Shown here piece after piece: positions 26,755 through 31,764 of a DNA stretch of 64,000 nucleotides. This DNA is from an uncultured Bacteroidota bacterium (GTDB taxonomy: Bacteria; Bacteroidota; Bacteroidia; Bacteroidales; P3), in NCBI GenBank assembly GCA_902771735.1, contig CACXXO010000017.1, positions 1 to 64,000 of the forward strand, given 5' to 3'. The notes beneath the pieces are model-generated. The model searched no databases and was not told the origin of the DNA. It saw only the letters and a program-made list of their open reading frames with translations. The position numbers were made by a program, and so were the translations under genes. Within the stretch, counting starts at the first letter, position 1. Each line of letters begins with the position of its first letter.

Positions 26755-28917
26755 ATGAAAATTCGTACATTAGTATTGGCCCTGGTCATGACGCTGGTGC
26801 TGCCCAATGCAGTGCGCGCCGACGAAGGCATGTGGCTTCTCTCCCTGATTGGCAAGAACTATCAGGACATGCAGAAAGCCGGTTTCAAACTCACTCCCGA
26901 GGACATCTACAGCATCAACAAGAGCTGCCTGAAGGATGCCATCGTGGGTCTCGGCAATGCCGGCAGCCCCTTCTGGCACTTCTGCACCGGTGAAATCATC
27001 TCCTCGAAAGGTCTCGTGAGCACCAACCATCACTGCGGATACGGCAAGCTGCAGGAGCACTCGAGCGTGGAGCACGACTATCTGCGCGACGGTTTCTGGG
27101 CCTACAGCATGGACCAGGAACTGCCCAATCCCGGACTCACCGCCTCGATTCTCGTGCGCATGGAGGATGTCACCGCCAAGGTGAAGGAAGCGCTCACCGA
27201 CGAGATGAGCGAGAGCGACCGCCAGACTGCCATCGAGAAGGTCTCCAAGATGATTGCCGACGAGGCTGTCAAGGGTACCCAGTACAACGCCACGGTGAAG
27301 CCTATGTTCAACGACAACCAGTTCTTCCTCTTTGTCCACATCATCTACAAGGATGTCCGCCTCGTGGGCGCTCCTCCTTCGTCGATGGGCAAGTTTGGTG
27401 GCGACACCGACAACTGGAGCTGGCCGCGCCACACCTGCGACTTCTCCATGTTCCGCATCTACACCGCCCCCGACGGCAGCCCCGCCGAATACAGCAAGGA
27501 CAACGTTCCCCTGAGCCCCAAGCATCACCTGCCCGTCAACGCCGGTGAAATCAAGGACGGCGACTTCGCCATGGTCATGGGCTTCCCCGGCACCACCGAC
27601 CACTTCCTCACCTCCTTCGGCCTCGAGGAGACCATGAACATCACTAACAAGCTGGTCTACGAAATCCGCACCGTCAAGATCAACATCCTCCGCGAGGAGA
27701 TGGCCGCCAGCCAGGCCACCCGCATCAAATACGCCTCGAAGTATGCCTCCTGCTCCAACTACTGGAAATACAGCAACGAGCAGAACAAAGCCCTCAAGGC
27801 CCTCAACACCATGGGTGTCAAGAAAGAGGTGGAGAAAGATTACATGCAGTGGGCCAGCCGCCAGACCAACCCCAAATACAGCCGCGCCCTCGACCTCATC
27901 AAGAAAGGCTACGCCGCCCGCGCCACCGTCGAGGAAGCCCAGCTCTACCTCCGCGAAGGCCTCCTCTCCGGCCCCGAGAGTCCTCTCTTCGCCTTCCGCA
28001 TCTCCAACACCTTCAAGAAAGTTCTCGAGAACGACCCCAAGGCCGACCTCAGCTTTATCCAAGGCTACATCGACAACTTCTACAAAGACTTTGACGTGAA
28101 CGTCGAGAAACGCCTCGTCTCCTCTCTCTTCAAGTATGTCGTCGACCATATGAATCCCGACTACTGCCCCCAGTTCCTCCTCGACGCCAACAAGAAATAC
28201 AAAGGCAAATTCGACGAGTATACCGAAAAGCTCTTCAGCAAATCCATCTTCGCCGATCCCGAGAAGCTGGCCAAGTTCATGAACAAACCCAACATCAAGT
28301 CCCTCGACAAAGACCCGCTGGTCCAAGTTGGCAACAACATCTATGAGGCCTATGTTGCCCTCGGCGACCAGGTGCCCCAGGAGGTGCAGGACAACCTCGA
28401 GCGCGGTATCCGCGACTTCACCGACGGTATCCTCCAAATCAACGACGGCAAGAAACTCATGTCGCCCGACGCCAACTCCACCATCCGTCTCACCTACGGC
28501 AATGTGAAGAGCTACGACCCGCGCGACGGCGTCTCCTACCACTACTACACCACCCTCCGCGGTGTCATCGAGAAAGAGGATCCCGAGAGCAGCGAGTTTG
28601 CCGTTCCCGCACGCCTCAAGGAGCTCTACGCCAAGAAGGAGTTCGGCCGCTACGCCAACAAAGACGGTGAACTGCCCACCTGCTTCATCACCAACAACGA
28701 CATCACCGGCGGCAACTCCGGCTCGCCCGTCATCAACGGCAAAGGCCAGCTTATCGGCCTGGCCTTCGACGGCAACAGCGAGGCCATGAGCGGCGACATC
28801 GACTTCGAGGAGAACCTCCAGCGCTGCATCTGCCTCGACAGCCGCTACATGCTCTGGGTCATCGATATCTTCGCCGGTGCCAAGAACCTCATCGAAGAGA
28901 TGGATATCGTCAGATAA
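26755..28917 (+). CDS. S46 family dipeptidyl-peptidase, DPP7 type
   Basis: A periplasmic serine peptidase that releases dipeptides from oligopeptides in protein-fermenting Bacteroidales. 720 residues with a signal peptide (about 1-22, ending VRA before DEGMW). Catalytic His is in STNHHCGYG (His92/93), the Asp block is DNWSWPRHTCDF (219-230), and catalytic Ser655 is in GGNSGSPV. Residue 673, 18 after the Ser, is Gly (in LAFDGNSE). In characterised members Arg673 gives DPP11 acidic specificity and Gly the DPP7 hydrophobic specificity, so DPP7-like activity is inferred. The TAA is followed immediately by the next ATG. Confidence 0.93.
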   Translation: MKIRTLVLALVMTLVLPNAVRADEGMWLLSLIGKNYQDMQKAGFKLTPEDIYSINKSCLKDAIVGLGNAGSPFWHFCTGEIISSKGLVSTNHHCGYGKLQEHSSVEHDYLRDGFWAYSMDQELPNPGLTASILVRMEDVTAKVKEALTDEMSESDRQTAIEKVSKMIADEAVKGTQYNATVKPMFNDNQFFLFVHIIYKDVRLVGAPPSSMGKFGGDTDNWSWPRHTCDFSMFRIYTAPDGSPAEYSKDNVPLSPKHHLPVNAGEIKDGDFAMVMGFPGTTDHFLTSFGLEETMNITNKLVYEIRTVKINILREEMAASQATRIKYASKYASCSNYWKYSNEQNKALKALNTMGVKKEVEKDYMQWASRQTNPKYSRALDLIKKGYAARATVEEAQLYLREGLLSGPESPLFAFRISNTFKKVLENDPKADLSFIQGYIDNFYKDFDVNVEKRLVSSLFKYVVDHMNPDYCPQFLLDANKKYKGKFDEYTEKLFSKSIFADPEKLAKFMNKPNIKSLDKDPLVQVGNNIYEAYVALGDQVPQEVQDNLERGIRDFTDGILQINDGKKLMSPDANSTIRLTYGNVKSYDPRDGVSYHYYTTLRGVIEKEDPESSEFAVPARLKELYAKKEFGRYANKDGELPTCFITNNDITGGNSGSPVINGKGQLIGLAFDGNSEAMSGDIDFEENLQRCICLDSRYMLWVIDIFAGAKNLIEEMDIVR

Positions 28918-31254
28918 ATGAAACAAGTTCAGCGACAGCAACTGCAGCAGAAACTATCACCGCAACAGATACAACTGATGCGGCTGCTGCAGTTGCCCGT
29001 CACTGACCTTGAGCAGGCCATCAAGGAGGAGATAGAGAAAAACCCCCTCCTCGAGGCCGAAAGCCCCGACGCCGAGGATATAGACAACCTGGCTGCCGAC
29101 AATAACCAGTCCGACTGGGACTCCGACGAGGAAGACTTCGACTACGACTACCGCGGGCGCCTTGAGAGCGACCCCAACGTACAACATCGCGAGTTCGTCC
29201 TCTCCGACACCCCCTCGTTCACCGAACGTCTCTCCTCGCAACTCTTCACCCGTCGTCTCACCGAGCGACAACAACTCATCGCCACCGAGCTCATCGGCTC
29301 CCTCGACGATGCAGGCTACCTCGGCCGCGACCTCGACCTGGTGACCAACGACATGGCTTTCCGACAAGGCATCGACGCCTCGCGCGACGAGGTCCTCGAA
29401 GTGTTGCACATCATCCAGAGCCTTGACCCCGCCGGCATCGGCGCCCGCAGCCTTCAGGAATGTCTGCTGCTGCAACTGGAACGGATGGCCGACAACACCG
29501 AATACTCCGAGTATTCCGACATCCTTCCCATCGCCACCACCATCATCAAAGACCATTTCGACGACTTCGCCAACCACCGCTACGAACGCATCTGCAACGC
29601 CCTCGCCATCAATGACGGGAAACTCGAAGAGGCCGCCGCCCTCATCCGCCGCCTCAACCCCAAGCCGGGTTCCTCCGATGCCGACAGCGATTTGGTGGCC
29701 AATGCCATCACTCCCGATATCATCATCTACCAACACGACGGCGAACTCCATTTCTACCTCAACGACGGCAACCTCCCGCGACTCTCCCTCAACACCTACT
29801 ATACCGACCTCCTCGCCGAATATGAGAAAACCAAGGGTGACCGCGAAACCATCTCCTTCCTGCGCACCAAACAGGCCGACGCCCAAGGATTCATCGACCT
29901 CCTCCAGCAGCGCCACGACACCATCGTGCACGTCATGCGCTACATCGTCCGCCATCAGCGCCGCTTCCTCCTCACAGGAGACCCCGACCAGAAGCAACCC
30001 CTGCGCCAACGCGAGGTGGCCGACGCCACAGGGCTCGACATCTCCACCGTCTCGCGCATGGCCAACAGCAAATACCTTCAGACCGACTTCGGCACCATTC
30101 CCCTCAAGGAGTGCTTCTCACAAGGCATGGCCAACGCCGAAGGCGAAGAAGTGTCGGTCGAGGCCGTCAAGCAACGCCTTGCCGACGCCATCGAGCACGA
30201 GGACAAACAGGCGCCCCTCTCCGACGACGCCCTGGCGCACCTGCTCAACGAGCAAGGCTACCCCCTGGCTCGCCGCACCGTGGCCAAATACCGCGAGCAA
30301 CTCGGCTTCCCCGTGGCACGCCTCCGCCGACTGCTGATACTGGCTATTATCCTACTTTCCTCCCTCCAACTTCCGCTTTCTGCCCAGGTCTCCTACTACG
30401 ACTCCCTCGTCAACGCCCGCCTCGAGGCCTCGCGGCAAACAGCCAAGAGCCCGGTCCCTGAGACTGCACGGCAGGCCTCCTCCTTCCTCCAATCCAAGCA
30501 ACAGAAAGCCGAGAGCAAACTGGCCGTCAAAGCCATCCGCGAAGCCGCCAAAACCACCGACGACGACACCTCGGCCCTCACCGCTGCCATGGTGCCTCTC
30601 TGGTACGACGCCTTCCCTCACCACCGCGTCAACCCCCTCGGCCGCACACGCCTCGACAACCTGCCCGACGAAATCAACCTCAAGCTCGTCAAAGACTCCT
30701 CCGACTTCTGCTTCCCCGTGCGCAACAGCAAGACCTCCAACTACGGCTGGCGGTGGCAGCGTGGCCACCACGGCGTCGACATCCGACTCAACACCGGCGA
30801 CCCCGTCTATAGCGCCTTCAGCGGCATAGTGCGCATAGCAACCCGCATGGGAGGCTACGGCAACTGCGTCGTCATACGCCACCCCAACGGCCTTGAGACC
30901 CTCTACGGACACCTCTCCAAAATCAACGTCCATCCCAACCAACCCGTCGCCGCAGGCGACCTCATCGGCCTCGGCGGCTCCACCGGCAATTCCACCGGCC
31001 CACACCTCCATTTCGAGTGCCGTTTCCTCTATCAAACCTTCGACCCCGAATGGATTCTCGACTTCAACAACTTCTCTCTCCGCACTCGCCGACTCCACCT
31101 CGACAAGACCTACTTCGGCATCCACCAGCCCCGCAAGGGCCAACGTCTCGACTACAAAGCCGACAACAGCATCATCAAGGAACCCAAGAAAAAGAGAAAA
31201 AACACCTCCTCCGCTGCTGCCGCCACCTATACCTTCAACCCCAAAGACTTTTAG
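28918..31254 (+). CDS. rpoN: RNA polymerase sigma-54 factor fused in frame to an M23 metallopeptidase
   Basis: One open frame of 778 residues. Residues 1-471 are a complete RpoN: the Gln/Leu-rich activator region (QQIQLMRLLQLPVTDLEQ), core-binding and HTH regions (TGLDISTVSRMANSKYLQ), and the RpoN box ARRTVAKYRE at 451-460, ending FPVARLRR as expected. With no stop, the frame continues into a signal-peptide-like stretch (LLILAIILLSSLQLPLSA, cleavage before Q490) and a complete M23 domain with GHHGVD and GPHLHFE metal ligands. An in-frame GTG at 30313 would start a 313-residue secreted peptidase with a basic MARLRR n-region. Either a true fusion or a nested gene with internal start is possible; an assembly error cannot be excluded. 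Directly abuts the S46 gene. Confidence 0.85.
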   Translation: MKQVQRQQLQQKLSPQQIQLMRLLQLPVTDLEQAIKEEIEKNPLLEAESPDAEDIDNLAADNNQSDWDSDEEDFDYDYRGRLESDPNVQHREFVLSDTPSFTERLSSQLFTRRLTERQQLIATELIGSLDDAGYLGRDLDLVTNDMAFRQGIDASRDEVLEVLHIIQSLDPAGIGARSLQECLLLQLERMADNTEYSEYSDILPIATTIIKDHFDDFANHRYERICNALAINDGKLEEAAALIRRLNPKPGSSDADSDLVANAITPDIIIYQHDGELHFYLNDGNLPRLSLNTYYTDLLAEYEKTKGDRETISFLRTKQADAQGFIDLLQQRHDTIVHVMRYIVRHQRRFLLTGDPDQKQPLRQREVADATGLDISTVSRMANSKYLQTDFGTIPLKECFSQGMANAEGEEVSVEAVKQRLADAIEHEDKQAPLSDDALAHLLNEQGYPLARRTVAKYREQLGFPVARLRRLLILAIILLSSLQLPLSAQVSYYDSLVNARLEASRQTAKSPVPETARQASSFLQSKQQKAESKLAVKAIREAAKTTDDDTSALTAAMVPLWYDAFPHHRVNPLGRTRLDNLPDEINLKLVKDSSDFCFPVRNSKTSNYGWRWQRGHHGVDIRLNTGDPVYSAFSGIVRIATRMGGYGNCVVIRHPNGLETLYGHLSKINVHPNQPVAAGDLIGLGGSTGNSTGPHLHFECRFLYQTFDPEWILDFNNFSLRTRRLHLDKTYFGIHQPRKGQRLDYKADNSIIKEPKKKRKNTSSAAAATYTFNPKDF
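30313..31254 (+). CDS. possible independently started secreted M23 peptidase nested in the rpoN frame
   Basis: Starting at the in-frame GTG, the product would be 313 residues: basic n-region (MARLRR), hydrophobic core (LLILAIILLSSLQLPL) and an SA-Q cleavage site. A linker follows, then the M23 domain: HHGVD Zn ligands, SAFSGIVRIATRMGGYGNC, LYGHLSKINVHPNQPV, and HLH. M23 enzymes cut peptidoglycan cross-bridges in the periplasm and could not act as part of a cytoplasmic sigma factor, which favours a separate product. The start codon is inferred; Bacteroidota often lack Shine-Dalgarno sites, so none is expected. Confidence 0.5.
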   Translation: MARLRRLLILAIILLSSLQLPLSAQVSYYDSLVNARLEASRQTAKSPVPETARQASSFLQSKQQKAESKLAVKAIREAAKTTDDDTSALTAAMVPLWYDAFPHHRVNPLGRTRLDNLPDEINLKLVKDSSDFCFPVRNSKTSNYGWRWQRGHHGVDIRLNTGDPVYSAFSGIVRIATRMGGYGNCVVIRHPNGLETLYGHLSKINVHPNQPVAAGDLIGLGGSTGNSTGPHLHFECRFLYQTFDPEWILDFNNFSLRTRRLHLDKTYFGIHQPRKGQRLDYKADNSIIKEPKKKRKNTSSAAAATYTFNPKDF

Positions 31255-31275: not shown

Positions 31276-31764
31276 ATGAAAAAGACCAACCTTTCCGACT
31301 ACTCACCCTCCACCGTGCCCAACGGCGCGCCTTGGACCATCGCCGTTGTGGCGGCCGAATGGAACCCCGAGGTAACCAACGCCATGCTCAAAGGCGCCGT
31401 CGAAACACTCCTCCTCCACGGAGTGAAAGAAGACAACATCATCGTCCACCGCGTGCCCGGCACCTACGAACTCTCCTATGCCGCCGACACCCTGGCCGAG
31501 CTCGACAGCATCGACGCCGTCATCTGCATCGGCTGCGTTATCCAGGGCGAGACACGCCACTTTGAATTCATCTGCCAGGCCGTCTCGCAAGGGCTCACCA
31601 ATGTGGCCCTGGCCAACCACAAACCCATCATCTTCAGCGTCCTCACCACCGACACCATGCAGCAAGCCCTCGACCGTGCCGGCGGCCAACACGGCAACAA
31701 GGGGGTCGAAGGCGCCATCACCGCCCTCAAGATGCTCCAATTCACCGACCAAGCAGTCTTCTGA
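31276..31764 (+). CDS. ribH: 6,7-dimethyl-8-ribityllumazine synthase
   Basis: Condenses 5-amino-6-ribitylaminouracil with 3,4-dihydroxy-2-butanone phosphate, the penultimate riboflavin step. 162 residues, normal length. Seen: VAAEWNPEVTNAMLKGA (substrate loop), HRVPGTYELSYAAD, and GCVIQGETRHFEFI with the catalytic His after ETR. Two bases separate its TGA from the fmt GTG. No other rib gene is nearby. Confidence 0.96.
   Translation: MKKTNLSDYSPSTVPNGAPWTIAVVAAEWNPEVTNAMLKGAVETLLLHGVKEDNIIVHRVPGTYELSYAADTLAELDSIDAVICIGCVIQGETRHFEFICQAVSQGLTNVALANHKPIIFSVLTTDTMQQALDRAGGQHGNKGVEGAITALKMLQFTDQAVF

Follow-up and report, generated by a model that had tools for sequence, protein, structure and literature searches.

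A sigma-54 gene joined in frame to a predicted secreted M23 peptidase in uncultured gut Bacteroidales

The question raised by this locus is how a cytoplasmic sigma-54 and a peptidase predicted to be secreted to the cell wall can share a single polypeptide chain, and what would become of each half once that chain is made. In the window, i.e., the whole stretch of 64,000 nucleotides of DNA that was analysed, positions 28918–31254 (+) form a single open frame of 778 codons that runs from ATG to TAG. No stop codon is found in this frame between the final RpoN residues, RLRR, which end at 30330, and the M23 peptidase.

The fused frame and its two halves

The features of the locus are given below by coordinates, strand, and content.

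26755..28917, +, preceding gene, an S46 peptidase, the stop of which directly adjoins the ATG of rpoN
28918..30330, +, RpoN (sigma-54) part, residues 1–471, through RLRR and without a stop of its own (Pfam AID, CBD, and DBD)
30268..30294, +, ARRTVAKYR, read from the sequence, which we take to be the RpoN box; 12 residues separate its end from the hydrophobic core
30313..30315, +, in-frame GTG proposed as a nested start, confirmed as present in the window
30319..30330, +, RLRR, the final RpoN residues, which would serve as the positive n-region of the signal peptide
30331..30384, +, core and c-region of the predicted internal signal peptide, residues 472–489, placed by hydrophobicity
30382..30387, +, predicted signal peptidase I site A489/Q490, a small residue followed by Q
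30385..31254, +, predicted mature M23 peptidase, residues 490–778 and the stop (Pfam Peptidase_M23)
31276..31764, +, following gene, a frame of 162 codons from the list of open frames, presumably ribH

Four Pfam domains are found in the 778-codon product, each matched across nearly its entire profile: Sigma54_AID (PF00309, residues 2–46), CBD (PF04963, residues 94–295), DBD (PF04552, residues 314–471), and Peptidase_M23 (PF01551, residues 616–710). Sigma-54 chains of solved structure align with residues 7–473 of the product and reach chain residue 476 of 477, so the joint lies at the natural end of RpoN. A reading made earlier from the sequence alone had described RpoN as complete to its usual end, lacking a stop, and in frame with M23, and this description is borne out by the Pfam matches, the structure alignment, and the open frame. 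At the joint itself the window reads FPVARLRR-LLILAIILLSSLQLPLSA-QVSYYDS.

The RpoN half thus carries the activator-interacting (AID), core-binding, and DNA-binding domains of a sigma-54 together with the box; the stop that ends a soluble sigma-54 is absent, and none precedes M23 in any of the 86 fused genes described below. The M23 half carries, within the PF01551 domain, the HxxxD and HxH residues that we assume to form the metal site of this family. Residues H617, D621, H665, H696, and H698 are invariant across 22 aligned fusions. In some fused genes (L016–L019 and L113–L119, among others) the M23 part ends in an extra tail, presumably LysM-like, which is missing from the group that includes the window's gene.

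The fusion is the only Sigma54_DBD match, and the only RpoN detected, in the window's genome. The same genome encodes one strong PF00158 activator of 400 residues in which GAFTGA is present, and we regard its four weaker PF00158 matches as belonging to other AAA+ proteins. Strong activators, at least one per genome, are also present in 12 further genomes of the genus. Two strong activators are found in G061 (L239 and C11:115765–116265), the RpoN of which is unfused. Exact −24/−12 sites number six in the window's genome compared to three for the reversed pattern, and three of the six lie 37–81 bases upstream of plausible genes (L203, L205, and L207, on contigs C1, C8, and C27). These promoter-like sites are suggestive only. 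The frames that follow them look like those of a Lon-type protease, a DUF3467-type protein, and a secreted thioredoxin-type protein, respectively, as far as we can presume from their appearance.

Distribution and origin of the fusion

The search covered 41 relatives and then 190 genomes of the family, comprising 120 of the window's genus and 70 of other genera. The 128 rpoN loci fetched from the matches include 86 that are fused, 85 of them from the window's genus and one, L178 in genome G196, from another genus. The same plan of the joint (RpoN, RLRR or RLRK, hydrophobic core, small residue, Q, and M23, all in one frame) is found in 85 of the 120 genomes of the genus, and its recurrence in frame marks the joint as real rather than a product of chance. 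Where a full-length match is listed, the fused relatives are 46–86% identical to the window's protein. The near relatives for which a name is given are Bacteroidales assembled from metagenomes, in many cases those of the rumen and other gut samples, and the fusion is widespread in this large group of uncultured gut Bacteroidales.

An error of sequencing or assembly that deleted a stop might be imagined in a genome that consists of 37 contigs. It was rejected, because the same joint is present in 86 species genomes, and its probability is negligible. The sequence-only reading had named two results that would count against it. One of them, an indel in the window that hides a stop, is excluded by the relatives that carry the same joint. 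The other, that the two genes are always apart in relatives, does not hold for the 85 fused genomes of the genus, although 31 genomes do keep the genes unfused.

These 31 (27 of them among the fetched loci, together with G066, G098, G116, and G128) are part of the remaining 35 genomes of the genus; in the other four (G003, G050, G092, and G140) no RpoN was found. None of the four has a match to Sigma54_DBD, yet each still has a sigma-54 activator, and for this reason their rpoN may as likely lie on unassembled contigs as have been lost; many genomes of the genus are incomplete. With 35 of the 120 genomes not shown to be fused, the fusion is dispensable. In G116 (L253) the match to rpoN shifts frame inside the gene, and the frame of M23 comes only after a stop.

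Outside the genus, one fusion, that of G196, was found in 70 genomes of sister genera, most of the others having been judged among the matches listed. When 393 genomes sampled from the order were searched, none of the matches listed, apart from that of the window itself, is unbroken over both halves. A TAA interrupts the match in G157 of this sample. Where long open frames had been seen around rpoN in other genomes, the loci fetched (10 loci and G158) all have an RpoN that ends in its own stop.

In a quick tree built from the RpoN parts, with 128 rows, one support measure, and 43 of 125 inner branches drawn open, the label fused or unfused requires 3 changes, compared to a mean of 35.6 in 500 shuffles. 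The label requires 4 changes in a tree of 131 rows, to which three rows were added; G116 was not placed. L178 is placed next to three unfused genes from its own genus, at a support of 100 in the 128-row tree and 99 in the 131-row tree, so that, most simply, the RpoN–M23 fusion would have arisen twice. The fusion in L178 follows the same plan, with RLRK, a hydrophobic core, and G-Q, and the genes of its relatives lie apart.

An unfused gene within the fused clade shows the reverse course. G066 (L254) nests there with a support of 100 together with L138–L140, its RpoN ends in HLRRTH followed by a stop, and no M23 match is found within the 5-kb stretch. This suggests a natural loss of the exported half, and, as G066 retains an RpoN with a stop and without an adjoining M23, a sigma-54 half that is worth keeping alone.

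The unfused pairs likely show the steps by which the fusion was reached. In outgroups a further frame lies between rpoN and M23, and, for 28 unfused M23 neighbours, frames 0, 1, and 2 relative to rpoN are occupied 13, 6, and 9 times. The two genes overlap by four bases, ATGA, in L166–L169, G098, and G128, and in L137, L144, and L157 the stop of rpoN is followed immediately by the in-frame ATG of M23. Since pairs of the latter kind are parted by one in-frame stop, a single change can fuse them.

Both halves of the fusion are under purifying selection. In 16 close pairs dN/dS ranges from 0.038 to 0.220 for RpoN and from 0 to 0.202 for M23 (15 computable pairs). The signal segment, with 14 computable pairs, ranges from 0 to 0.475; looser constraint is usual for signal peptides.

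The joint as a signal peptide and the fate of the chain

The residues that precede the joint are RLRR in 72 of the 86 fused genes, RLRK in nine, and other basic forms in five, and unfused RpoN mostly ends in RLRKEL or a longer sequence. Of 42 unfused genes, 33 have an acidic residue in the tail of RpoN, compared to one of the 86 fused genes (L141) within the first four residues past the joint, and the tail of RpoN for this reason looks remodelled into the n-region of a signal peptide. The suggestion that the last RpoN residues double as such an n-region, made from the window alone, therefore gains support from the relatives, where basic residues are kept and the acidic residues of the tail are nearly all gone.

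A hydrophobic segment follows the joint in all 86 fused genes, with a best-10-residue mean that has a median of 3.13 and a lowest value of 2.22. The corresponding median is 2.88 in 33 of 34 unfused M23 neighbours, the signal peptides of which are ordinary and include [AGS]Q. In this phylum, Q is the residue in front of which signal peptidase I cuts. The cut site predicted in the fusions lies 12–21 residues past the joint in 84 of 86 and 28 or 29 residues past it in two, with A (76), G (5), or S (5) at position −1 and Q at +1 in all 86, under a loose rule that 35.5% of shuffled segments also pass. A stricter test was added on account of this looseness, in which the first Q that lies at least 12 residues past the joint has A, S, or G before it in 74 of the 86 fused genes, with failure in 12, the background for Q preceded by these residues in the RpoN parts being 11.5%. 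The available part of one report describes Q at +1 as a habit of the phylum in substrates of signal peptidase I, with an average of 71% per species (PMC5837995), and the habit is followed up in another, likewise available in part (PMC10653852). The fused chains have the features of this Bacteroidetes rule, namely, a basic n-region, a hydrophobic core, a small residue, and Q at +1 of the predicted site. In the window's protein these features are not at the N terminus of the chain and start after 471 residues of RpoN.

Taken together, the arrangement points to a single precursor with an internal signal peptide, from which M23 would be freed and sigma-54 left on a membrane tail; we consider this reading rather probable. 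The order of the precursor would be cytoplasmic sigma-54, an internal Sec signal peptide, and a secreted M23 cell-wall peptidase, with the last, positive residues of sigma-54 serving as the n-region. A basic and then hydrophobic segment that follows a cytoplasmic domain inserts with its N terminus in and its C terminus out, and the segment found here would be expected to do the same. Signal peptidase I would then cut after the small residue before Q490 and free M23 to the periplasm, and sigma-54 would keep a hydrophobic tail of ~18 residues in the inner membrane, on the spent signal peptide. It would then either function in place, at the membrane, or be released from it, for which the simplest agent would be a site-2 protease of the type that removes spent signal peptides.

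The RpoN part is not closed by a stop, so each copy of RpoN is synthesized with the tail attached. This agrees with the point raised in the sequence-only reading that such a chain calls either for cleavage or for a sigma-54 that stays at the membrane; sigma-54 is probably made at the membrane, where it must work or from which it must be cut free. The RpoN box contacts the −24 element, according to the available part of a paper on sigma-54 (PMC3162934). With the box 12 residues from the core, little room would be left for promoter DNA as long as the tail stayed in the membrane, which in our view makes release likely. Release by a site-2 protease is plausible by analogy, since an enzyme of the kind needed for the last step exists: RseP of E. 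coli, in the available part of its description, clears signal peptides and makes a cytoplasmic fragment of FecR that serves transcription (PMC8144685). The window's genome encodes a signal peptidase I as well as a site-2 protease in which HEAGH is present; as these are general enzymes, we count their presence as weak evidence. We can tentatively speculate further that sigma-54 is here an obligate membrane-born precursor, for which export of M23 would provide the first cut and the site-2 protease the second, so that active sigma-54 would report on export or on the envelope and one peptidase would be exported per sigma-54.

Other fates of the chain have to be compared with the cleaved precursor. 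The order of the parts and the basic residues before the core would also fit, N-in/C-out, a type II membrane protein that stays uncut, with sigma-54 inside, one helix, and M23 outside, similar to ToxR or CadC and with the peptidase as a sensor or a wall anchor; the joint preservation of both halves under purifying selection is consistent with it as well. Such an anchor is nevertheless unlikely, as the core is short, given the 12–21 residues from the joint to the cut site in 84 of 86 fusions, the small residue and Q fit a cut signal peptide and would be unneeded, and the metal-site residues of the 22 aligned fusions are invariant as in an enzyme. The fusion might also be a neutral accident, in which a stop was lost once, the halves work after cutting, and tethering has no regulatory role. 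Unfused neighbours that occupy every frame, some of them one in-frame stop before the ATG of M23, make such an accident easier to accept, and G066 shows that the joint can be lost again; yet the fusion has been kept in 85 species and occurs again in another genus, and its tail is free of acidic residues in 85 of 86 fused genes, so that a purely neutral origin appears somewhat doubtful to us.

The GTG at 30313 had been put forward as a nested start that would turn the last RpoN residues into the n-region of a separate enzyme. As a conserved element it did not stand, since GTG occupies this position in 48 of the 86 fused genes and valine, by any codon, in 67, and in L021 the 51 codons that precede the joint include no ATG, GTG, or TTG. 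In a more general form, the peptidase would be made also or mainly from some internal GTG, ATG, or TTG near the end of rpoN, and in the other 85 fused genes one of these codons is indeed found between 17 codons before the joint and two after it. Between the box and the joint GTG and TTG are seen 143 times, compared to 95.0 (sd 6.9) expected from the genes' own codon use. GTG is also more frequent in fused than in unfused genes at V15 (48 of 67 versus 11 of 34, Fisher 0.0002) and at V4 (68 of 84 versus 22 of 37, Fisher 0.02), in tests that ignore kinship. Much of this excess is, however, a habit of codon use, because in the remainder of the fused genes 210 of 332 valines that precede alanine are encoded by GTG, compared to 17 of 44 in the unfused ones. 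With no single start conserved, and with RpoN given no stop by any of them, so that the fusion would still be made, a nested start is quite improbable as the source of the peptidase. An extra internal start may exist in some species, the window's included, and would not yield a tail-less RpoN. A tail-less RpoN would be obtained, together with the fusion, by a programmed frameshift that ends RpoN in another frame at the joint. In 58 of the 86 fused genes a +1 stop is present no more than 13 codons away from a position four codons before the joint, that of the window being the TGA at 30335; this striking number is matched by synonymous shuffling, from which 58.2 (sd 3.4) would be expected. For the other shift 6 are seen where shuffling predicts 9.0, no shared slippery sequence is seen among the joints listed, and the frameshift was rejected as very improbable.

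Comparison with known systems

Several kinds of arrangement to which the cleaved precursor would be related are known: polyproteins split by signal peptidase, membrane-bound sigma precursors, sigma factors targeted to the membrane, and regulators similar to ToxR. The closest in terms of the chain is FbcH, the cytochrome b/c1 precursor of Bradyrhizobium, in which signal peptidase separates two proteins by a cut at a signal sequence inside the chain. The fusion described here likewise has two proteins per chain and an internal signal sequence, cleavage of which is predicted; whereas FbcH yields a pair of subunits of a membrane enzyme, here a transcription factor is joined with a wall enzyme. ToxR and CadC each have a cytoplasmic DNA-binding part, one crossing, and a periplasmic domain, but they are not sigma factors, and their crossing is an anchor rather than a cut signal peptide.

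Pro-sigma-K of Bacillus, which is freed by a site-2-type protease, resembles the proposed RpoN–M23 precursor in its membrane association and in the manner of its release. It differs in belonging to the sigma-70 family and in having a pro-part that is N-terminal and includes no enzyme. The available part of one study describes it as a membrane-associated sigma precursor (PMC6242693). FecR, as far as described in the available part of the work on RseP, is a type II membrane protein, the cytoplasmic part of which is released stepwise with a cut by RseP (PMC8144685). This part serves transcription, as would the sigma-54 released here, although FecR is a regulator of a sigma factor and not a sigma factor itself, and its first cut is not made by signal peptidase I. 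Sigma-32 is brought to the inner membrane by SRP, and its control needs this targeting, according to the available part of PMC3866087; it is thus a sigma factor with membrane targeting, as proposed here for sigma-54, but has no signal peptide and no fused secreted enzyme.

No fusion of sigma-54 with a peptidase was found in the literature searched, which comprised titles and the openings of abstracts among the matches listed. What appears to be new, as judged from the sequences, is a sigma-54 that would carry an exported enzyme behind a signal peptide built from its own C terminus. The genes that it controls have led to the argument, in the available part of the paper cited above (PMC3162934), that sigma-54 holds central control over the bacterial exterior; in 85 species of this genus, and once in another, sigma-54 shares one chain with a wall enzyme that is predicted to be secreted. 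Should sigma-54 indeed arise at the membrane, a link between its activity and export or the state of the wall could exist without an anti-sigma factor. The locus also indicates how a signal peptide can be fashioned from the C-terminal end of a DNA-binding protein although no start codon of its own is conserved, and a secreted enzyme that lies behind an internal signal peptide would be missed by prediction tools that consider only the N terminus.

On the opposite strand, two mirror open frames, at 26770–28941 (−, 723 codons) and 28957–30009 (−, 350 codons), run antisense to the S46 peptidase gene and rpoN, and are probably a by-product of codon use.
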